A stretch of DNA of 41,497 nt from a virus, in the IMG/VR virus record IMGVR_UViG_3300017991_000192, positions 1-41,497 of that record. One strand, written 5' to 3'. A program made the position numbers and the translations under genes. Of the stretch, positions 7,451 through 41,100 are shown piece by piece (positions within the stretch are counted from its first letter, which is position 1; every line of letters starts with the position of its first letter). The notes beneath the pieces are model-generated. The model saw nothing but the letters and a program-made list of their open reading frames with translations. It was not told where the DNA came from and did no database searches.

Positions 7451-8314
7451 TTAAAGAATAGAGGATCGAGCCAACTTATCAGTGACTTCTTTACGATAAG
7501 CCGGATCAGTTTTATAGCGAGGATCACGCATTGCGTCCGTAACCTGAGCCCTGGACGCGAAAACGGAACCATGAACATCAGAGCTGTCACCAGACAGAAG
7601 CTTAGGATCTTTACCATTAGCGGCCTCATACTTAGACTGTAAGCCACTCACCGCCAACATTGCATCTTCAGCAGTTCCAGCAGTCACTGCGCGATCATAA
7701 GCAGCGATCTCAGCTTGAGTCATATTTTCTGCAGCCCATGTGACCATCTCGTTGTAGTGATCTTGACCACCGACATGATCATAAACTTCCTGATAAAAAG
7801 TCGTGGCTAAAGCTTCCTGGCCAGCGATATACTGATCGACATACTCACGAGGAATGCCAGCTTTTTCCAGCTTGGCATAAGATTCATCGGTGAGGGTGCC
7901 CTTTTCCGCATATTCGGCGGTCAGATCTTCCATCTTCAAACCCGCTTTTTCCACGGCTTTATCGGCAGCATCAGCATCAGCATCCGGATCAGCATTGTCA
8001 GCATCGGCATTGTCAGCATCGGCATTGTCAGCATCGGCATCGGCATCAGCCGGTTTGCTCTGCTTTTTCTCCAGTTCAATATAACTTTGAGCCAGAGCCT
8101 CTGCGTTGACTTCACCAGTTTCAGCGTTCCAAAATTTCTCAGGACACCACTCCGGGCGTTCAGAAGCAGCCGCAAGACTCGGATCATCATCCGGTCTATC
8201 CATAGGATTAGGCGTGATGATTTTACCATCCACATCTACGACGTCACCATTCTCATTTGTCCCAGGAGCATTCGCTGGTGTGTCCTCAGAGTTTAATACA
8301 ATACGTTCAACCAT
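7451..8314 (-). CDS. Scaffolding (capsid assembly) protein, gp9-like
   Basis: A 287-residue, very acidic protein between portal and capsid, the position and size of T7 gp9 (307 residues), which drives procapsid assembly and is then lost. The N-terminal half is disordered in appearance and contains a low-complexity Asp/Ala/Asn tract (about residues 93-120). That tract is encoded by a 15-bp unit repeated three times around 7991-8037. The segment RPEWCPEKFWNAETGEVNAE near residue 53 is typical of this family. The C-terminus is helical and basic. The start is ATG with AAGGAGG 6 nt upstream. Confidence 0.92.
   Translation of the reverse strand: MVERIVLNSEDTPANAPGTNENGDVVDVDGKIITPNPMDRPDDDPSLAAASERPEWCPEKFWNAETGEVNAEALAQSYIELEKKQSKPADADADADNADADNADADNADPDADADAADKAVEKAGLKMEDLTAEYAEKGTLTDESYAKLEKAGIPREYVDQYIAGQEALATTFYQEVYDHVGGQDHYNEMVTWAAENMTQAEIAAYDRAVTAGTAEDAMLAVSGLQSKYEAANGKDPKLLSGDSSDVHGSVFASRAQVTDAMRDPRYKTDPAYRKEVTDKLARSSIL
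7991..8037. repeat. Three-copy 15-bp tandem repeat inside the scaffold gene
   Basis: On the plus strand the unit CATTGTCAGCATCGG occurs three times in a row. On the minus strand it encodes repeats of Ala-Asp-Asn-Ala-Asp. Copy number can change by slippage without breaking the frame, so this is a likely length polymorphism. Confidence 0.85.
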
Positions 8315-10317: not shown

Positions 10318-10339
10318 TCCTTATATGAGGGAGGGGTCT
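10318..10339 (-). promoter_or_regulatory. Phage RNA polymerase promoter, virion operon copy
   Basis: Exact copy of the element AGACCCCTCCCTCATATAAG plus GA on the minus strand. The part CCCTCATATAAGGA resembles the core of the T3 promoter, CCCTCACTAAAGGGA. Identical copies are at 22753-22774 and 30026-30047. A perfect 7-bp inverted repeat, GGGTCTA/TAGACCC, overlaps its upstream edge in this copy only. It is placed to transcribe the portal, scaffold, capsid and tail genes, like the T7 class III promoters. Confidence 0.82.
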
Positions 10340-10983: not shown

Positions 10984-11203
10984 TGAATATAATCTCCCAT
11001 GCGTAAGGGTTAAATTTCTTAGATACGATAAGAGGCACACCACAAACTGCGTCCAGGGATTTCAATTTTCTCGTTGAGAACAGGAGGATCTCCTTACGTA
11101 AAGCATCAGCAATTCGTTGACCAACAATAAGAGATTTAAATTCTAATCCCAGTTCTCTCAATTCCAACAGTGAAGTTACCATCTTATCAATAATATCCGT
11201 CAC
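10970..11203 (-). CDS. Small protein; likely detached C-terminal part of the diphosphohydrolase-like gene
   Basis: A 77-residue ORF with a GTG start at 11203, lying inside one copy of a 29-bp direct repeat (11198-11226). Deleting one repeat and the 32 bases between the copies (61 bp) would join this frame directly to the upstream DUF5664-type gene after its SPPPEQGVT segment. The fused sequence would read ...GVT-DIIDKMVTSLL. It therefore looks like the former C-terminal region of that protein, or a coupled partner, separated by a non-triplet insertion. It may still be translated from GTG, with AAGG just upstream. Residues are mixed charged and helical, with a C-terminal VPLIVSKKFNPYAWEIIF strand-like segment. 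Confidence 0.55.
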   Translation of the reverse strand: MTDIIDKMVTSLLELRELGLEFKSLIVGQRIADALRKEILLFSTRKLKSLDAVCGVPLIVSKKFNPYAWEIIFNDED

Positions 11204-11723
11204 ACCTTGTTCGGGAGGGGGAGACTTTTTTCAGCCAATGATGGAGGAGCCAAGCTGGCGTCACACCTTGTTCGGGAGGGGGAGACTGTTCGTCGGAGGA
11301 CTGTGTGTCTTGTTCAGTAACAGACACCTTGTCTGCCAGAGGATAAGGCAAATCATCCAGGGACTCCGGAAGCAAGCCTCTTTCGATACGCTGCTTCGTG
11401 TCATAAGCACAGAACAAATTCCAGATTGCCGCAATCAAATGGTTTTCATCACGCATCCCCACAGTGAACTCAGTTAAGTGTCGCATCCCTGAGTCAACAA
11501 AACGTGAGATTGGAATGCCCTTCTCCCAGTTACGATCACCATACTTCTGGCATCCTGCCTGAAAATGCTTGGCCAAATCCATTAGGGCAAACATGGGGAG
11601 TAGGTCAAAGCGTCCTTTATTCTCCTGCGTATCTCTGACGGCACCGGTTTCAAACTCCTGTCGTTTCCCTGAGTCTTTGATCACGTAATCTCCAACACCA
11701 CGATGATCTGTTTTAACTGACAT
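11187..11723 (-). CDS. dATP/dGTP diphosphohydrolase-like protein (DUF5664 / MazG-like)
   Basis: A 178-residue protein. Residues 35-130 carry the signature of phage dATP/dGTP diphosphohydrolases: KGRFDLLPMFALMDLAKHF, then CQKYGDRNWEKGIPISRFVDSGMRHL, then HLIAAIWNLFCAYD. Known members hydrolyse dATP or dGTP to (d)NMP and in some phages clear host nucleotides to favour modified bases; whether this one does so is unknown. The last 23 residues are out of frame with the downstream ORF because of a 61-bp insertion bounded by a 29-bp repeat. The C-terminus is therefore probably not ancestral. The start is ATG after AGGAGG. It overlaps the Cys-rich gene upstream by 43 nt. Confidence 0.8.
   Translation of the reverse strand: MSVKTDHRGVGDYVIKDSGKRQEFETGAVRDTQENKGRFDLLPMFALMDLAKHFQAGCQKYGDRNWEKGIPISRFVDSGMRHLTEFTVGMRDENHLIAAIWNLFCAYDTKQRIERGLLPESLDDLPYPLADKVSVTEQDTQSSDEQSPPPEQGVTPAWLLHHWLKKVSPSRTRCDGYY
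11198..11287. repeat. Pair of perfect 29-bp direct repeats
   Basis: The plus-strand copies run 11198-11226 and 11259-11287; each begins CGTCACACCTTGTTCGG and ends GAGACT. Their starts are 61 bp apart. They encode SPPPEQGVT in one frame at the first translated copy and another frame at the second, because 61 is not a multiple of three. Confidence 0.95.
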
Positions 11724-22752: not shown

Positions 22753-22774
22753 TCCTTATATGAGGGAGGGGTCT
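22753..22774 (-). promoter_or_regulatory. Phage RNA polymerase promoter, replication operon copy
   Basis: Exact copy of the 22-bp element found at 10318-10339 and 30026-30047. Its upstream edge overlaps the last bases of the RNA polymerase stop codon, and it points into the replication genes. The CCCTCATATAAGGA core resembles the T3 promoter core. This is the expected place for a class II promoter. Confidence 0.82.
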
Positions 22775-25360: not shown

Positions 25361-26182
25361 TTAAACAGAGTAACTAGGTGGGATACTCTCAGCCCGCTCC
25401 AGGAGAGACACAGCATCTTGGAGTTGAGCTGGATTAAGGTGAGCATACCGTTCTGTCACGTGAATCGTTGAGTGCCCTAACCAGCGTTGAACCACATATA
25501 AAGACACTCCCTTTTGAACTAAACGCGACGCGCAGGTATGTCGTAACGTGTGGATGGTAACTTCAATCGCTGGACGTGTTTTCCGAAACAGATATTTCAC
25601 TCGATTATCACTCAGCGTAAACTTGTTCCGATGCTTCAGAATTTGTACGACACGTTTTGTCATTGGCACTGACCTGGGACGATCATTCTTAGATTCCCAA
25701 ATCATAATTAGATTATGATCAAAATCTACATCTTTCCGGACCAGTCGCAGAGCCTCAGATAGCCGCATCCCAGTATCTACCAGGATAACCACCAGATCAG
25801 CCATCTCGTCTTCACCTAAAGACCGCAGCTCAGAAACAATCTGATTTTCTTCATCCTCAGACAGGACGTGAAAACGTGTGGGTTTTTCAGCCGTACGGTA
25901 TTTGTTAAACCGAGGCATCGTGATCACTTCCCCCCAGTCCTCCTGAGCAAGCCTCAGAATCGTCTGCAAGGTGGATAACTTCCGGTTTATCGTCGTAGCA
26001 CCATTGCCTTCCTTCCTGAATCGATTGACCAACTCTTGAAGAGTCTTCTCGGTAATCTTTGATAGTGAAATTTCACCGAGATGCCGCTCCAGGTGCCGAC
26101 AATTTGACGCTACTGATCGATACGACCGGCTTGAATTCCAGTGTTCACGTAGTGCGCGTAAAGTTGCGTCAGCAAGTTTCAT
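25361..26182 (-). CDS. Tyrosine recombinase / integrase (early-region copy)
   Basis: A 273-residue protein. The SAM-like N-terminal core-binding domain (about residues 1-90) is followed by the catalytic domain with all active-site residues: Arg140 (DTGMRLSEAL), Lys165 (ESKND), His211-x-x-Arg214 (HTLRHTCASRL), His237 (WLGHST) and Tyr246 (ERYAHL). It resembles XerC/D-like phage integrases. No arm-binding AP2-type N-terminal domain is evident. It overlaps the HTH gene by 4 nt (ATGA) and lies just upstream of the RNA polymerase gene, where integrase-bearing marine T7-like phages such as P-SSP7 keep theirs. A second integrase lies at 32177-33151. Confidence 0.95.
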   Translation of the reverse strand: MKLADATLRALREHWNSSRSYRSVASNCRHLERHLGEISLSKITEKTLQELVNRFRKEGNGATTINRKLSTLQTILRLAQEDWGEVITMPRFNKYRTAEKPTRFHVLSEDEENQIVSELRSLGEDEMADLVVILVDTGMRLSEALRLVRKDVDFDHNLIMIWESKNDRPRSVPMTKRVVQILKHRNKFTLSDNRVKYLFRKTRPAIEVTIHTLRHTCASRLVQKGVSLYVVQRWLGHSTIHVTERYAHLNPAQLQDAVSLLERAESIPPSYSV

Positions 26183-26430
26183 TTTTTCTCCTTCTTCCCT
26201 GCGTACACTTCTGCTTCACATAGAAGCGGACTAGATGTTTCAACATAAGGATTGAACCAGCGTTCAGGCCACATCCAAGCTTCTCGTGATACTGTAGTCA
26301 CGGCTTCGAGATCCTCTGCCATCTTCCGGGAAATCGAACGTTGACCCCGGACGATATAACTCAACGAAACATGTGATATCCGCGCCCGACGCGCGATTTC
26401 TGCTTGAGTCATGAGTTCCCGTACGGTCAT
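26179..26430 (-). CDS. XRE-type HTH regulator (putative lysogeny repressor)
   Basis: An 83-residue protein with a classic Cro/C1-type HTH: LMTQAEIARRARISHVSLSY then IVRGQRSISRKMAEDLEAVT, ending in a Trp-rich AWMWPERWFNP segment. There is no C-terminal protease or oligomerisation domain, so it is smaller than a lambda-type repressor. It is coupled to the integrase by ATGA, has AGGAGG 9 nt upstream, and is preceded by a near-consensus host promoter. The pair looks like a lysogeny module. Likely targets are the operator-like repeats near the RNA polymerase promoter. It could instead be an excision or Cro-like control protein. Confidence 0.85.
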   Translation of the reverse strand: MTVRELMTQAEIARRARISHVSLSYIVRGQRSISRKMAEDLEAVTTVSREAWMWPERWFNPYVETSSPLLCEAEVYAGKKEKK

Positions 26431-28305: not shown

Positions 28306-28995
28306 TTAGACATACTTTTTGGTGTTTAATGTGGTTTCCAAGTCTGCGATAATCTCGGAAGCTGAGTGTGTCAACCAGTACACTTTTTGTGCTTTACGAT
28401 ACGCGCGTACCGAAGGATATTGTCTTTCAGCATTCCGTGCGTAGCACACATCAGAGCACGCACACATACCGAGATTTTTTGAAGGACACGCCATAGCATT
28501 GCCCATGTTAAAAATCATAATGGTATCGTCTAATTTACCGTTTCCAAGCGACATTTTGACACTTCCCAGTTTTCGATACTTTTTGTTAGCTTTCATATGG
28601 CTTTTTTCAGGTTTATTTCGGCCACTACCATGCACTACAAAAGCAATATTTTTAGGTGTTTGACACAAAGTACACTGTCCGCAACTGCCTGGACACTTGA
28701 CGAAACCTTTTGGGATATCTTTATCGGTCATAACTACAATGGTTTTCCCATTATTGCCATTATCGTGGCCACTTCCTTTCACTTTGAATGTAGCTTTTGA
28801 AAAGTTTAAGTCGCGTCTTGCCGTGTATCCATATGTTTCAATGTTCCAAGTACTTTTAAGATAGTCTGCAATCCGGTTTAATTTCGATACACACGATTGA
28901 CTGAAAAAATCTCCTGATTCATTAAAGCGAAAGTACTGGATATAATCTCCAAGTTTTACCGCCTGTTTCGAGTTAAGTCCTTGTTTTTGCTTCAT
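28306..28995 (-). CDS. gp88-like early protein with apparently reordered halves
   Basis: A 229-residue protein, the first gene after the early host promoter, with AAGGAGG 7 nt before its ATG. Residues 16-45 hold an YFRFNESGDFF block. A YTARRDLNFS block follows, and then a Cys cluster CPGSCGQCTLC. Residues 150-210 hold LGNGKLDDTIMIFNMGNAMA, then CPSKNLGMCACSDVCYA. From memory, phage gp88-type proteins carry these blocks in the opposite order: the GNxKL/CPG block first, the RxHxSGDFF block second. This copy therefore looks circularly permuted. Its function is unknown. First-gene position in T7-like phages is usual for anti-host proteins. Confidence 0.6.
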   Translation of the reverse strand: MKQKQGLNSKQAVKLGDYIQYFRFNESGDFFSQSCVSKLNRIADYLKSTWNIETYGYTARRDLNFSKATFKVKGSGHDNGNNGKTIVVMTDKDIPKGFVKCPGSCGQCTLCQTPKNIAFVVHGSGRNKPEKSHMKANKKYRKLGSVKMSLGNGKLDDTIMIFNMGNAMACPSKNLGMCACSDVCYARNAERQYPSVRAYRKAQKVYWLTHSASEIIADLETTLNTKKYV

Positions 28996-29034: not shown

Positions 29035-29067
29035 CTTAAACATAAAATTTGTGTTTAAGATTGTCAA
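29035..29067 (-). promoter_or_regulatory. Major early host promoter with overlapping palindrome
   Basis: On the minus strand TTGACA (29067-29062), 17-bp spacer, TATGTT (29044-29039): a near-consensus sigma70 promoter about 45 nt before the first early gene. An inverted repeat CTTAAACA...TGTTTAAG (29035-29059, 9-bp centre) covers the spacer and -10 region. It is a candidate operator for repression in the lysogen. Confidence 0.75.
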
Positions 29068-29430
29068 GGAAAAAAACACGAAAAAGACGATTTTTTTTTT
29101 CAGGTGTAACTCTGAGTAGCAAAAAACAGATACAAACAAACACGCACGCACAACCAAAATTCAGCTATGAGACCAGTGAGGCACCTGAAACATACCAGAA
29201 AGCCAGTCAATCAGATATACAATCGGATTGAAACGTTTAATTTGCGCCATATACAAGACGGTCGCGGCGCGTGAAGGAAGGAATGCGCACGTGCGCGTGT
29301 TCCTCATGGCTGCGCCCCCGTAGGGGGGGTGTTTTTCGCCCGGAGGATTAGGGTTGGGGTCTCAGAAATTTGTAATAAAATTTTTGGCTCTTACATTTCT
29401 CCTGAACCTTCTTCCGGTAATCTTTTGGTG
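29068..29430. other. Non-coding region upstream of the early promoter
   Basis: About 360 bases with no supported gene on either strand. It contains a plus-strand T tract (29091-29100), a GC-rich stretch with GCGCACGTGCGCG near 29285, and the terminator listed separately. In T7-like phages the packaged ends and the direct terminal repeat lie between the terminase gene and the early promoter, so the true ends are probably within 29.1-30.0 kb. No direct repeat is visible, because a circularised assembly would collapse it to one copy. Confidence 0.5.
29313..29336 (+). terminator. Plus-strand terminator shielding the STAS-like gene
   Basis: Stem CGCCCCC / GGGGGTG (one G-T pair) with loop GTAGG, followed by TTTTT. 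It is oriented on the plus strand although no plus-strand gene lies directly upstream, so it would insulate the promoter at 29431 from incoming transcription. Confidence 0.65.
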
Positions 29431-29459
29431 TTGACAATATCCCAGGACTCCACTAGAGT
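29431..29459 (+). promoter_or_regulatory. Sigma70 promoter of the STAS-like gene
   Basis: TTGACA (29431-29436), 17-bp spacer, TAGAGT (29454-29459). The expected start is about 27 nt before the ATG. A perfect -35, ideal spacing and good -10 make this one of the best host promoters in the window. Confidence 0.75.
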
Positions 29460-29492
29460 TTAACGTCTAATTTATTTGAAAAGGAGCCAATC

Positions 29493-29909
29493 ATGACCAC
29501 CGTACTTTCATCAGAGCGCATTCATCTTACACGAGATGATACTGCGCTGCGTTTTACACTAATCCTTAAAGACACACTGACAGATGACGACCGGCACCGT
29601 GTGCGTGAAGGAATCATTGCCGGATTACAGCCAGATCGTTTTAACCTGTATGACCTTATTATGGACATCTCGCAGCTCGATTCTGTAGGTTTCCTTGGGG
29701 TGGAGACATCCATCACGTACTGGCATGCTGCTATTAAAAAGTTCGGACATCTCTTCGTCAACTGCTACCTCATTTTAGGTGAAAAGTTCGAGTCAGATAT
29801 CCTGTCTCTTCAGGTGAAACATGTAGTTGAAACACTGGGCGCACAGGACAGGTGTGTGGTCTTGACCACTTACGAAGAACTTACAGATCTTCTTAGAGAA
29901 GCTATCTAG
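29493..29909 (+). CDS. STAS-like domain protein, probable lysogeny-expressed moron
   Basis: A 138-residue protein on the plus strand, against its minus-strand neighbours, with AAAAGGAG 7 nt upstream and its own promoter and upstream terminator. The fold pattern resembles STAS / anti-sigma-antagonist domains: a beta strand YDLIMDIS, then QLDSVGFLGVETSITYWHAA, a helix ending at KKFG, then LFVNCYLIL, and a final helix YEELTDLLREAI. The serine phosphorylated in SpoIIAA-type proteins is the second of a DSSG motif. Here that position is Val (DSVG), so ordinary phospho-control is unlikely. It may alter host regulation or membrane traits in the lysogen. The STAS assignment is by eye. Confidence 0.72.
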   Translation: MTTVLSSERIHLTRDDTALRFTLILKDTLTDDDRHRVREGIIAGLQPDRFNLYDLIMDISQLDSVGFLGVETSITYWHAAIKKFGHLFVNCYLILGEKFESDILSLQVKHVVETLGAQDRCVVLTTYEELTDLLREAI

Positions 29910-30017: not shown

Positions 30018-30025
30018 CGGAGCTC

Positions 30026-30047
30026 TCCTTATATGAGGGAGGGGTCT
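30026..30047 (-). promoter_or_regulatory. Phage RNA polymerase promoter, right-end copy (phiOR-like)
   Basis: Third exact copy of the 22-bp element, just downstream of terminase and tRNA-His and pointing out of the late region toward the presumed genome end. T7 phiOR sits in the same place and acts in replication. Transcripts from it would run antisense to the STAS-like gene. Confidence 0.8.
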
Positions 30048-30052
30048 GTTTA

Positions 30053-30127
30053 TGGGGTGCCTGGAGGGATTCGAACCCTCTAAAAGATGGGCCACAACCA
30101 TCTCCCGCGCCATTTGGGTTCAGGCAC
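30053..30127 (-). tRNA. tRNA-His (anticodon GTG)
   Basis: A cloverleaf can be drawn: acceptor GTGCCTG/CAGGCAC, D arm with 3-bp stem CCC/GGG, anticodon stem GATGG/CCATC with loop TTGTGGC (anticodon GTG), and T arm GAGGG/CCCTC with loop TTCGAAT. Discriminator C73 and the CCA end (30055-30053) are encoded. Oddities are A at position 8 in place of the usual T, a short D stem, and T rather than G at position -1, although C73 would normally pair with G-1 in tRNA-His. It lies 15 nt after the terminase stop. It may be a working phage tRNA or a remnant. Confidence 0.78.
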
Positions 30128-30141
30128 ACCCGCAGATTCTA

Positions 30142-31800
30142 TTAAGCGTGAAACCATTTAGGGCCTTGTGGTTTAACTCCCATGACATGCTCAGCAAAGT
30201 GTGCGAGCTCCTTGTTGAGCTGTTCTTCACGCCACTCGTCGGCAGCAGAATCCTGTTCCTTTGCTAGCCGGTTTTTCCAGTAGGCGACACTTTCAGCGAC
30301 GGCGTCGAGACGGTCATCGTGTGCAAGAGCCCCGCGCTCCAGGGTCATTCGGGTCATCTGATAGAAGAGTTGGTAGTTGATGTCATCAGTTCCCCTGGCG
30401 TCGCGCCGGATCAGTTCTTCATCCACGATCAGTCTGTGTTGATTCATGACAGGCTCTAGGACGTCTATGATACGCCTTTCCTTCTGTACTGAATTGCGGA
30501 TTTCCGAAAGGGTTACCGTGTATTCGTGTTTCTTGAGGATTGGCTTCATGAGTTCCAGGAACATGCCGTCACCAAAGTTACTCTCAATGACGATCTCATG
30601 GACGCCACCTTCCTTGGCCTTTTCTGCAAGGGTGTTGAGTGTCTTCTCTTCGTAGCCTCCGGTGAAGCCACCGGCGTCACACAGGAAGATGTTTCCATGC
30701 ATCATCTTTGAGATGGCATATCCAGTTTCATCCCGGCCTCGACCGGCTGGATCGATGAGCATCACTGCACCTTGATAAGGCCGCCACTCTTTGTCCCACT
30801 TAAGGGGGCGGTATAGACGATCACCTTGGAGTCCAACCATGGGTAGGTCTTGTGGCCGGATCAGCTGTTCAGGACCAGAGCCATACATGAATTTGACTGG
30901 AGCTTTCTCCAGGTCAATATTCCAGACTATCAGGTCAGACAACTTGAGGGGATACTTGTTGGCATCACTGAGAGATGTATCCAACATGAATTGAAGGGCA
31001 AATCCGGAGCGTCCGTATGATGTTTCTCGTTCAATCAGGTCAAAGTCGTTAAAGCGTTCCGGATCAGTAGGAGCTCCTACTTCGAGTCGTGACTTGAGGA
31101 TGTAGGGCGCAAGTCGGTTTCCGAAGAATTTACGGAGGCGTTCTCCAGGCATTCGTGCGGGCCAGATCTTAACTTCGTATCCCCGGTTGGGAAGTACATT
31201 ATAGAGGGACATTTCACACTGAGGAGTCCCCAGGTAGATAATGCGGGAGTGCTTCGCAGGAGTAAGCACTGCGTCGAACTCTTTGACAGCCTCTGAGAGG
31301 CGTTCCCGCATGGTCAATGTGTAAGAGTTCTTAGGTACTTCGATATCGTCAGCTACTATAACATCGGCACGTGATCCTGCGAGCTGTCCAAAAATACCTA
31401 CTGATTTCACTGAAGGGGCATGGTGTGCCCTAGCAGGTCCGACATCGAAAGCAACGTTTGAGTCTCTCTGTTTATTTTTAGGCTGTAAATGCTGAAGGAT
31501 GTCCACCTCCGCGATCAGCCTTTTAGTAAATGTGGAGAAGGCGTCGGCTCTGTCTTTTGAAGCCGACACTACGAGAACTTTAAGTTGGGGATCTCTAAGG
31601 AGTAGCCACAGAACGAAAACAGACGTAATCCAGGACTTACCAACTCCTCGAAAAGCCTCGATGACAGAACGCTTAGGCCCGCGCTGGAGGTAATCAGAGA
31701 TGTCATCTTGAATGGGGGTTGGTGGGGGGAGCAGTAAGTGTTTCCAGATGTAGGCGACGAATTTCTTAAAGTCGGCTTTGAGTTCGTCTAAAGGTGACAT
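30142..31800 (-). CDS. Terminase large subunit (gp19-like)
   Basis: A 552-residue packaging motor (T7 gp19 has 586). The ATPase domain has Walker A FRGVGKSW near residues 50-57, VLVVSASKDRADAFSTF, and Walker B VIVADDIEV. The nuclease domain has VMLIDPAGRGRDETGYAISK (catalytic Asp) and an Asp pair near ALAHDDRLDAVAE. It cuts concatemers and pumps DNA into proheads. The start is ATG after GGAGG. I find no recognisable small terminase gene beside it. Confidence 0.96.
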   Translation of the reverse strand: MSPLDELKADFKKFVAYIWKHLLLPPPTPIQDDISDYLQRGPKRSVIEAFRGVGKSWITSVFVLWLLLRDPQLKVLVVSASKDRADAFSTFTKRLIAEVDILQHLQPKNKQRDSNVAFDVGPARAHHAPSVKSVGIFGQLAGSRADVIVADDIEVPKNSYTLTMRERLSEAVKEFDAVLTPAKHSRIIYLGTPQCEMSLYNVLPNRGYEVKIWPARMPGERLRKFFGNRLAPYILKSRLEVGAPTDPERFNDFDLIERETSYGRSGFALQFMLDTSLSDANKYPLKLSDLIVWNIDLEKAPVKFMYGSGPEQLIRPQDLPMVGLQGDRLYRPLKWDKEWRPYQGAVMLIDPAGRGRDETGYAISKMMHGNIFLCDAGGFTGGYEEKTLNTLAEKAKEGGVHEIVIESNFGDGMFLELMKPILKKHEYTVTLSEIRNSVQKERRIIDVLEPVMNQHRLIVDEELIRRDARGTDDINYQLFYQMTRMTLERGALAHDDRLDAVAESVAYWKNRLAKEQDSAADEWREEQLNKELAHFAEHVMGVKPQGPKWFHA

Positions 31801-31863: not shown

Positions 31864-31884
31864 CCCACGAGGTTCGACGATCTC
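31864..31884. repeat. 20-bp sequence shared with the gp16-like gene
   Basis: CCACGAGGTTCGACGATCTC occurs here (31865-31884) and at 40826-40845. In both places the minus strand can read Glu-Ile-Val-Glu-Pro-Arg-Gly. Here that reading belongs to a third frame that ends in ...LIHEFWG before the terminase gene and includes a proline-rich NPPPN segment. Confidence 0.7.
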
Positions 31885-32176: not shown

Positions 32177-33151
32177 ATGAGTATTTCAGGGAGAAAATTA
32201 AAAGTTGGGCTGCGATTTCGGTACGAGTTTCGGCATGAGGGTCAGCGCATACAGTCTCGATACACGTATCTCTCTAAGAGGGATGCCCGCGCTGCTGAAA
32301 AGGAACACCATGATAGACTTTCCGGAGAGACGTTGCGTGATTTGTTTAAGGCGCGACTTGAAGACATGAGATTGAAGGGGATGTCGCGAGACTATCTTTC
32401 AGAAAATCGCAGATATTATATCCGAGCTCAAAATGTGTGGGGAGAAAATACGCCGGTGCGAACCATCGACAAACCAAAAGCACACGATTTGATTCAACTC
32501 GAAGCTGCACGGCTGGCCCAGGCAGGAAAGACTAACCACAAATTAAATGGAATGATCCGGTGTCTCCGAGCTTTTTTCTACTGGAGTATCGACGAGCGGG
32601 GCATCATGATGGAGAATCCCTTCTATAAATTCAAGTTATATCCTATCGCATTGAAACAGAAATACATTCCGTCAGATCGACAGGTAGCCGCCGTCCGGAA
32701 ACTCTTGACGAGAAAGCAGCGATCTTTATTTGATTTTATAGAAGAAACAGGTTGCCGAATCATGGAGGCTGTCTCACTCCAAGTTGACGATATTAATTTG
32801 AGGGCACAGACTGTGACACTCTGGACGCGAAAAGCCAAGAATCGTAATCTAACTCCGCGCATCATTCCGTTTCCACACTGTTTAAAAGACAAGCAACTTC
32901 CGAAGGCTGGAGCCGTATTCAAGACCTGGGATGCTTATCCCCGGTTTTTAGAAGAGGCGATGGTGCTTTATAAAAAATCGCCGGTCGGCTATTTATCACC
33001 CACTTGGAGTTGGCACAATTTACGCCATCGAAGAGCCTCGCTGTGGGCTGCTGCAGGTATGAGCACCTTTGAGATAATGTCACGGTTGGGCCACAATAAT
33101 CTCTCAACGACGATGCAGTATCTCCAACTCTTGGGTTATTCAGCCCTTTAA
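32177..33151 (+). CDS. Tyrosine integrase next to attP
   Basis: A 324-residue protein on the plus strand. I start at the ATG at 32177 with GGGAGG 6 nt upstream. The N-terminal 40 residues (LKVGLRFRYEFRHEGQRIQS) look like an AP2-type arm-binding domain. A SAM-like core-binding domain follows, and then the catalytic domain with Arg194 (ETGCRIMEAVSL), Lys near 219-221, His280-x-x-Arg283 (HNLRHRRAS), His306 (RLGHNN) and Tyr315 (MQYLQL). All active residues are present. The attP-like tRNA fragment begins 95 bp downstream. Opposite strand, own ribosome site and adjoining att site mark it as an integration cassette. Confidence 0.95.
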   Translation: MSISGRKLKVGLRFRYEFRHEGQRIQSRYTYLSKRDARAAEKEHHDRLSGETLRDLFKARLEDMRLKGMSRDYLSENRRYYIRAQNVWGENTPVRTIDKPKAHDLIQLEAARLAQAGKTNHKLNGMIRCLRAFFYWSIDERGIMMENPFYKFKLYPIALKQKYIPSDRQVAAVRKLLTRKQRSLFDFIEETGCRIMEAVSLQVDDINLRAQTVTLWTRKAKNRNLTPRIIPFPHCLKDKQLPKAGAVFKTWDAYPRFLEEAMVLYKKSPVGYLSPTWSWHNLRHRRASLWAAAGMSTFEIMSRLGHNNLSTTMQYLQLLGYSAL

Positions 33152-33167
33152 AGGGGGAACACAGGTA

Positions 33168-33399
33168 GAGGGTAGAGGGGTACCCTCTGGAGGGTATTTC
33201 CTGAAATAAACATTAAGTAAATACAAGATGTTATGGGCTACTAGCCAGGACTTAAAATCCCTTATCGCTTGCCGGTGTGCGGGTTCGATTCCCGCCCCAG
33301 GCACCATAAATCAGTAATTAAATGAGGGAGTTAGCATAAGGACAGACTGCTCCTTTAAATAATGCTCGGAGGGTACCCCCGGTCTTGTAGGATACCCTC
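33168..33399. repeat. GAGGGTA heptamers flanking attP (candidate integrase arm sites)
   Basis: GAGGGTA or its complement occurs at 33168-33174 (+), 33181-33187 (-), 33190-33196 (+), 33369-33375 (+) and 33393-33399 (-). They lie on both sides of the tRNA fragment at about 50-90 bp. Placement and orientation resemble arm-type or accessory binding sites in attP. The right pair also forms a hairpin after the 262-residue gene. Confidence 0.55.
33246..33306 (+). other. Putative attP core: 3' part of a tRNA-Leu(UAA) gene
   Basis: From the anticodon arm to CCA this matches a tRNA-Leu: loop CTTAAAA (anticodon TAA), long variable arm TATCG/CGGTG, T arm GCGGG/CCCGC with loop TTCGATT, acceptor 3' strand CCCAGGC, discriminator A, CCA. 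The 5' half (acceptor 5' strand and D arm) is absent upstream. Phages that integrate into tRNA genes carry exactly such a 3' segment, so recombination restores the host gene. It lies 95 bp after the plus-strand integrase. Confidence 0.88.
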
Positions 33400-38199: not shown

Positions 38200-41100
38200 T
38201 TAGTCAGATGAAGTACCCAGGAGTTGTTCAAATTGGGTACGGTAAGTTTGTGTCTTTTCGTGCCGTCTTTCAGTTAAACCGCGAATCGCGTTGGCTTGCA
38301 GTTGATACTCCGCGATGATCTTCTCGCGCACTTCTGGTGTTTCAGCCAGATAAGCCGCGCGTGCGCCTTCCCGAAATATCTGAATGATACGTCGGTAAGT
38401 CTCAGCGCGTGTTTGATCATCTTTAATGTGTTGAAATTTAGGATTATCATACACCCGATTTAACGTCTCTCTGATGGGCATCTTCGCAAGTATGGCATTG
38501 AGTTGATCGTACTGTTTTGGCTCAAGTTCGACGCCCTGCAGTTTATCTGATATTCGACCAACGTTAGCTCCGCAGAAATACATATCGAGTAACGCCCGAT
38601 CTGCATCAGTTGTACGAGTAACGTTGAACATGCCAAACGTCCTGGGTTCTTTTACAATCGGTTGTCCGGTCACATTGTGGCGGCGCGGGAGTAGTTTTGT
38701 AGAGTCAACATTGATGTTAAACGCATCTTCCCAAGAGTAAATCTCTCTAAGGTATTGATCATCAGAGACCTGCTTGTTCTGCGCAGCAATCGCAAACGGA
38801 AAGAAGGTACTGCCCGTTCGCTTTATGAAACGTTCCTGCCAACCAGGAGATCCACGAAACATCATCGTCATGAAATCTGAGAGACTTTTCATGAAGGTTT
38901 TGCTTCCGATGTTATCCGCAAAGATGAGACTTGCGGCTGAAAACATCTCGTAAAAGGTGGAATCCGGCATGTGATACATATCGTAAACACGATGAATATC
39001 TGCAGCCATTCCCAACCACATGGCTAAGGGATCGAGGCGATTGTATTGAATCCACTTCTCCCCGGTCCAAAAGGCATACTCTTGAATGTTGGCATTGCGC
39101 CACGCATCTTGTTGCCCTGTAGGAGCTGCGCCCGTGATACGACCTGTGTTATAAAGATAAAAACCCAGGCCCATAACAGATGTACCGACTGAAATCCGAG
39201 AAACAGCTTCGGCCTGTCGGATACCTCCGGCTAGTAGATCTTCCTGAAATTTTCTTGAGAGGAGACCTAACGGTGTTCTCCTGCCTGAGAATAGAGCAAT
39301 ATTGACGGCCACATTATAGAAAGGCACAAAGATTGCTTTGAACAAAGGCAGCGCGTATTTACCAAGAACTCCCCCGGACGGGTTATAACTTAAAGCACGA
39401 CCTACATCAGCCCAGGCACCCCGCAGTGGGTTAGTAAAAGTCATCTCACGTGCGGCTCGAAGAGCGTCTAGATGAAGCTCTTCAGGTGTGTTCTTCATGA
39501 GGTTCAGAAACTCGTTGTCAAAAGAGTCCCAACCTTTCTTGATACCAACTGTAGTATTGTAGGCCATCTCGAAGGCCCGGAAGTTTTTCTCGGCTGCATA
39601 TCCAATCGATTTAAAGATTTCATCCTCAGCTGTGAGAAAGCGAAAGGGCAGTCGCACTAAATCACCAACTGGAATTTGCATCCACCACTCAGGCTCAATG
39701 CCTAATTTTTGTGCTGCCTTTTGGAGAGGAATATTAGGGATAGCTCCACCGCTTAATGATGTGTCATATTTTGTGAGTACATCAGTTATGGGTTCACCCT
39801 CCAGAAAGGACTGAAAAACCTTTCCGAGTTTTCGCTTGTCTCCGGAAATCCAATCAGCTTTAAATCCTTCTTTAAAACCTTTTACATTTCCGCGCACCAG
39901 TTTAGAAGCTCCGGGCAGATAGAATGCCTCTGCAAGGCCTTTTCCCATACCAGTATAATAAGCCGCGAGCTGTTTGAAACGCCAGGGCTGTATAAGGCCC
40001 ATGACACCAGTTGCGGCAGTCCGTGAAACTGCTTCTAAACTTAAGGCTGCCAACGAACCGAGCATGTTCACTTTATGTGTCTGTAAAGAAGAGACCAGGG
40101 CAGCTTGCCTATATTCAGTAAGCCCCTGCATGAAACGTGAACGTGTTACCTCACGCGCATACGCCGCTCTCGCTTCGCTATCGTGTAAAGACTTGTAGTT
40201 ATCTACCAGTTTCTTAATGTTTTGCTTCCCGGTGACGTCCATAGTTTCTTCTAAAAACTCGTCACTGATTTTATCAAAATCAAACTTCCGACCTTTGCGC
40301 ATAATTTTATATGCATTAAGACCACGCCCGACTTCGACCTGAACACCTTTCACTGTGCGCAGTAGATCAGCAAATTGCTGAAGATGTGCAGCCACTTTCA
40401 TTTCGTGACCAAAAGGCCTGTAACCGTGTTCTGCACTTTTCTCAGCGAGATCATAGATGAACTCGTCATAAGCCACCAGATAGCGGTTAATCATATTTAT
40501 TTTCACATCCAGATTTTTGACGTCTGCAGCAAAAGAAGCCACGAACTTGTTTACTTCTTCAACTCCAGTACCCGCAAGATCTGCAAGTTTTCTTCCAGCC
40601 AACGCCGCCGTCGTTCTTTGCGACCTGGGCGTATGCCTGGGAGTCTTCTCGATGATCATCTCCAGGAGCTGTTTATGTTCATCGGTTGTTTCAATCCGAT
40701 CAAAATTAATGAAATCCTTACTGAGTTCCTTTTCTGGTAGTTTCCCTTCAGTCAGGTCAAAAAGGTCTTTTGCCAGCTTATCTGCTTCTTCTGGAGTGAA
40801 TGGGCCAGAAACGGCTTCCTGAGAGCCACGAGGTTCGACGATCTCGTCTGGAGCCTTAGTAGCCCCTTCGGTAATTTTAGATGTTTTCTCTGAGATATCA
40901 GCAGCAGCCTCTCCAGGTAAATTCTCGTCAACTTGCTTTGAGATGTCGTCGAGGATGTTGTGCTTACTCGTCCATAACTTCCCCTTGACGAGGCGCAGAC
41001 TCATGAACAGGGCATCGGCTGCAGAACCAATGCCCAAACCTTCGATGGCATTCTTCAGCCGTCCTTCAGTTTCAGAATCATTCGGATCAGCCTTTAACCA

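Follow-up and report, generated by a model that had tools for sequence, protein, structure and literature searches.

The locus considered here raises the question of whether an open reading frame (ORF) that faces against the core genes of a T7-like phage is a genuine gene and, if so, what it encodes and when it would be expressed. The window, that is, the whole stretch of DNA analysed, is a virus record of 41,497 bases in which the T7-like core lies on the minus strand: single-subunit RNA polymerase, primase/helicase, DNA polymerase, endonuclease I, connector, capsid, tail and internal virion proteins, and terminase. Matches to the core and an integrase included phrog_414 (2e-252), phrog_38, phrog_239, phrog_449 and phrog_1. 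The phage is isolated, its closest terminases being ~58-59% identical. Read leftward, the terminase is followed by a tRNA-His gene, a repeated promoter element, the ORF, a host-type promoter at 29067-29039, a Gp88-like gene and the early genes, which include an HTH regulator and an integrase ahead of the RNA polymerase. The features around the ORF are as follows.

30142..31800, minus strand: terminase large subunit (phrog_38, E 5e-119)
30053..30127, minus strand: tRNA-His gene (gtg anticodon) between the terminase and the phage promoter (ARAGORN; Rfam RF00005, 45.6 bits)
30026..30046, minus strand: putative phage RNA polymerase promoter GACCCCTCCCTCATATAAGGA, leftward and antisense to the gene (3 identical copies)
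29493..29909, plus strand: protein-coding gene, 138 aa, ATG start, no detectable homologue (ORF list; codon usage)
29480..29486, plus strand: ribosome binding site AAAGGAG, 6 nt ahead of the ATG (sequence)
29431..29459, plus strand: predicted sigma70-type promoter TTGACA-N17-TAGAGT (10/12 match)
29315..29338, plus strand: GC-rich hairpin followed by TGTTTTTC, a weak terminator candidate (fold -18.7 kcal/mol, z -1.22)
29039..29067, minus strand: predicted early promoter of host type, TTGACA-N17-TATGTT, leftward and divergent from that of the gene (10/12 match)
28306..28995, minus strand: Gp88-like gene, first in the leftward early operon (PF17338, 2e-8; family of unknown function)

Several sequence peculiarities were recorded elsewhere in the window. 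The tRNA-His gene has an unusual D-arm and a T at position -1. The capsid assembly (scaffold) gene contains a tandem repeat with a 15-base unit, GCATTGTCAGCATCG (7992-8039). A direct repeat of ~30 bases, CGTCACACCTTGTTCGGGAGGGGGAGACT, is found at 11198-11226 and 11259-11287 with a spacing of 61 bases, at the end of a minus-strand gene (11187-11723) whose product has a dATP/dGTP diphosphohydrolase domain. An exact 20-base repeat, CCACGAGGTTCGACGATCTC, occurs near the terminase (31865-31884) and within the internal virion protein gene (40826-40845).

ORF 29493-29909 is a real gene. Its codon usage is typical of the phage, at 0.18 bits per codon; on the same score, windows of core genes had a 5th percentile of 0.15 and a median of 0.25, and the maximum among 445 wrong-frame windows was -0.07. 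Among plus-strand ORFs of 60 aa or longer, three of 73 scored above 0.1, namely this one, the second integrase gene (int2) and a 61-aa ORF opposite the terminase, which is a shadow. When the intergenic region was shuffled, an ATG ORF of this length arose in 26 of 2000 replicates (1.3%). Neither GC-content nor codon usage gave any sign of foreign origin. The gene is opposed to the terminase and to every assigned core gene, all of which are on the minus strand.

The TTGACA hexamer (29431-29436) and the TAGAGT hexamer (29454-29459) are separated by a 17-nt spacer, and a 10/12 match within the upstream 100 bp was reached by 1.3% of shuffles (p ~0.013); across the whole 3 kb, promoter-like sites were at chance level, with 5 found and 4.6 expected. 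This element is a predicted host-type promoter of the gene, and the strong ribosome site AAAGGAG stands 6 nt ahead of the ATG. A sequence-only reading of this DNA had described the locus as a self-contained cassette opposed to the phage genes, with a terminator, a consensus promoter, a strong ribosome site and a STAS-like protein. The gene, its promoter, ribosome site and orientation were borne out, the terminator proved weaker than described, and the STAS-like pattern was not upheld. The hairpin CCCCCGTAGGGGG (29315-29327) with its T-rich tail GGTGTTTTTC does exist; however, the element folds no better than its shuffles, and terminator-like sites in the region are near chance (5 versus 3.0). 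Placed ahead of the promoter, it could shield the gene from upstream reading but is not the terminator of the gene. No good terminator was found downstream of the gene, where the sole candidate (30023-30043) is the phage promoter element itself.

Further features of the window bear on the lifestyle of the phage.

25361..26182, minus strand: int1, the first tyrosine integrase, ahead of the phage RNA polymerase (phrog_1, 3e-53)
26179..26430, minus strand: small HTH regulator adjoining int1 (PF01381, 1.1e-6)
32177..33151, plus strand: second tyrosine integrase (int2), start set by the ribosome site AAAGGGAGG (PF00589, 5e-12; phrog_1, 9e-33)
33248..33306, plus strand: probable attP, a tRNA-Leu(UAA) 3' half with its CCA, directly past int2 (59-column alignment with E. 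coli leuZ; T-arm match)

The int2 product carries the HNLRH...LGH...Y motif, and its gene, located between the tail genes and the terminase, is the only clear plus-strand gene besides ORF 29493-29909. The tRNA-Leu(UAA) half-site past it is probably the attP, judging from its sequence, and is situated 3.3 kb from the ORF. Because two tyrosine recombinases are encoded together with this predicted attP, the phage is very probably temperate. The placement of int1 and the HTH regulator ahead of the RNA polymerase matches the known plan of temperate T7-like phages, as seen in LUZ100, Pasto and RHEph21, which are temperate or integrase-bearing. As for the host, GTDB genomes gave no match to a 31-base part of the half-site, the tRNA-Leu pattern had no match in genome and viral contigs, and matches in the plasmid collection were too distant for naming a host. 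Close relatives of int1 or int2 were not found in IMG/VR.

The 21-bp element GACCCCTCCCTCATATAAGGA is present in three exact copies (10318-10338, 22753-22773 and 30026-30046), all on the minus strand, with zero expected. One copy follows the RNA polymerase gene, another is upstream of the capsid region and a third comes directly behind the terminase; their core CTCATATAAGGAGA resembles the T7 promoter. On account of this repetition and position, the copies are likely recognition sites of the phage's own RNA polymerase. The phage promoters phi2, phi7 and phi8 of LUZ100 occupy corresponding places, phi8 being just after the terminase. The terminal repeat of LUZ100 is located 396-639 bases past the terminase end, and ORF 29493-29909 spans 233-649 bases past it here; by analogy, the gene would sit at or in the genome terminus.

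Phage morons are independently promoted genes of the lysogen, first described in lambdoid phages. We favour, with moderate confidence, the explanation that ORF 29493-29909 is an orphan accessory gene of this kind, carried by a temperate T7-like phage, read by the host polymerase in the lysogen or as the phage DNA enters the cell, and silenced by antisense transcription in lytic growth. Host RNA polymerase would read the gene from the promoter at 29431-29459 in the lysogen and during the first minutes after entry, and expression in the lysogen is plausible. The phage polymerase, once made, would transcribe leftward from 30046, antisense through the gene, and such transcription may shut it off. 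Most likely, its product would be a small, soluble protein acting on the lysogen through superinfection exclusion or host adjustment, and not an anti-anti-sigma factor. If true, a host-promoted gene antisense to phage polymerase transcription would constitute a simple design that is on in the lysogen and off in lysis. Recognition of temperate T7-like phages as a group is recent, and few of their lysogen genes are known.

Searches for relatives of the 138-aa protein returned nothing credible in Pfam, PHROGs, NCBIfam, PADLOC or the PDB sequences, the last containing no relative; no defence family was matched. Homologues were likewise absent from IMG/VR, GTDB genome contigs, phage records and plasmid records, the IMG/VR and GTDB scans being seeded by exact 8-residue peptides and so reaching close relatives only. 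None was detected in 30 related viral records, which are distant relatives and in many cases fragments. The NCBIfam exception model for the Shiga toxin A-subunit gave a chance match at 15.6 bits, its cut-off being 715. A match of 17 residues in two viral loci (L109/L110) was also attributed to chance, as it falls inside a 642-aa ORF with portal-like sequence. Opposite-strand ORFs past the terminase in related contigs look, by eye, like antisense translations of other genes and are unrelated to this ORF.

STAS domains share one fold with highly divergent sequences, and their defining feature is a conserved phosphorylatable serine (PMC8256260). In six-frame searches of the window, the models PF01740, PF13466 and PF11964 gave no match at E<=10, while the control genomes gave matches. 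A STAS profile was built from 16 real proteins, comprising 12 from plasmid records, E. coli MlaB and 3 PDB-verified SpoIIAA sequences. Against this profile the ORF product scored Z -0.3, like its own shuffles, whereas MlaB, when left out, scored Z +11.9 and six others exceeded Z 31. For STAS/SEC14, 11 proteins were combined into a profile, against which the product scored Z 0.85; two rough consensus baits served only to fetch real proteins of this group, and the second was dropped after a single match. The single-sequence AlphaFold model of the protein had a pLDDT of 43.6, and a fold search with this low-confidence model yielded no significant match and no STAS protein among the 50 best. In the model the elements run strand, strand, helix, unclear, helix, strand, helix, strand, helix; this order would agree with STAS, whose SpoIIAA fold has 5 strands and 4 helices, only if a strand were formed by residues 52-59, shown there as helix.

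What had been described as a STAS-like pattern comes down to one short stretch, LIMDISQLDSVG, without profile signal. The claim that valine replaces the phospho-serine depends on an alignment with a 3-residue deletion; in an ungapped register, set by eye, the position would be leucine, and the phosphorylatable Ser/Thr of the D-S-S-G loop is absent in either register. A constitutive antagonist, as had been suggested, is not supported, given the lack of profile support and of any HATPase_c_2 kinase partner encoded in the window, although partners of a STAS protein could be host-encoded. Overall, the earlier interpretation is supported as regards an independent, opposed gene with a host-type promoter, and unsupported as regards its STAS identity, the valine substitution and the antagonist role. 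A STAS fold for this protein has a low probability, and dropping the label averts a misleading annotation.

Other explanations of the locus were weighed against the accessory gene. That the protein is a very divergent, SpoIIAA-fold STAS protein without the phospho-serine, one that titrates away an anti-sigma kinase of the host and is never switched off, is quite unlikely: the divergence of sequences within the fold (PMC8256260), the resemblance of LIMDISQLDSVG to the STAS loop and an element order that would fit if residues 52-59 formed a strand are consistent with it, but the silent Pfam models with positive controls, both low Z values, the absence of a PDB relative, the fold search with the low-confidence model that listed no STAS protein among its 50 best and the missing HATPase_c_2 partner in the window speak against it. 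The more elaborate version, in which a serine-less STAS-fold protein would permanently bind a host anti-sigma kinase, rewire sigma-factor use in the lysogen and be shut off by the phage RNA polymerase in lytic growth, strikes us as extremely improbable. An artefact, either a spurious ORF or a decaying remnant, would account for the absence of homologues in all collections scanned, and ORFs of such length do arise in 1.3% of shuffles; however, the clearly coding codon usage and the promoter and ribosome site in register make this very hard to credit.

The gene might alternatively belong to the lysis-lysogeny switch, as an unrecognised regulator or immunity protein divergent from the promoter at 29067-29039, in the manner of a repressor set opposite the early lytic operon. 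Its orientation against that operon, the short and compact product, and the two divergent host-type promoters 364 bp apart in a long intergenic stretch are in line with such a role, which we regard as possible but unlikely: the product matched no HTH or other DNA-binding family, clear operator repeats were not found between the promoters, and the HTH gene beside int1 already fits the regulator role known in LUZ100, Pasto and RHEph21. Finally, the location of the gene next to the early promoter and the presumed genome end, together with a host-type promoter of its own, would suit a lytic-phase gene that enters the cell first and is briefly read by the host polymerase, like the early genes of T7, with no role in the lysogen. 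However, the gene faces away from the early operon, and in LUZ100, Pasto and RHEph21 the T7-like early genes share one orientation, which renders this option distinctly improbable. The accessory gene read in the lysogen remains our preferred explanation.

Among known systems, the STAS-domain-only proteins SpoIIAA and RsbV are similar to the 138-aa protein in length, in the DS-x-G stretch and, according to the weak model, in a compatible element order; they differ in that no profile similarity connects them to it, and here both the serine at the phospho-position and a partner kinase are missing. Pseudomonas phage LUZ100, a T7-like phage with temperate features (PMC10134795), has in common with the present phage its gene order, an integrase and a small regulator ahead of the phage RNA polymerase, a phage promoter just past the terminase and host promoters past the terminus. 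In contrast, all protein genes of LUZ100 are co-oriented, its terminal region carries no gene on the other strand, it has one integrase, and its phage promoter sequence is different. The Rhizobium phages Pasto and RHEph21 also combine a T7-like core with an integrase and an HTH/MarR regulator beside the RNA polymerase, and the RHEph21 terminase is 58.9% identical to that of this phage; unlike it, neither has an opposite-strand protein gene or a second integrase. Since no opposite-strand protein gene is annotated in LUZ100, Pasto or RHEph21, ORF 29493-29909 is an added gene, and two integrases likewise occur in none of these annotated relatives. As a single gene with its own predicted host-type promoter, oriented against the phage genes, it is moron-like; typical morons differ in having a clear terminator past the gene, and the cassette is therefore not a textbook moron. 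With an orphan protein as its product, the interest of the locus lies in its arrangement rather than in a known activity: ORF 29493-29909 is probably an orphan accessory gene, a kind already known, and what makes it interesting is where it lies.
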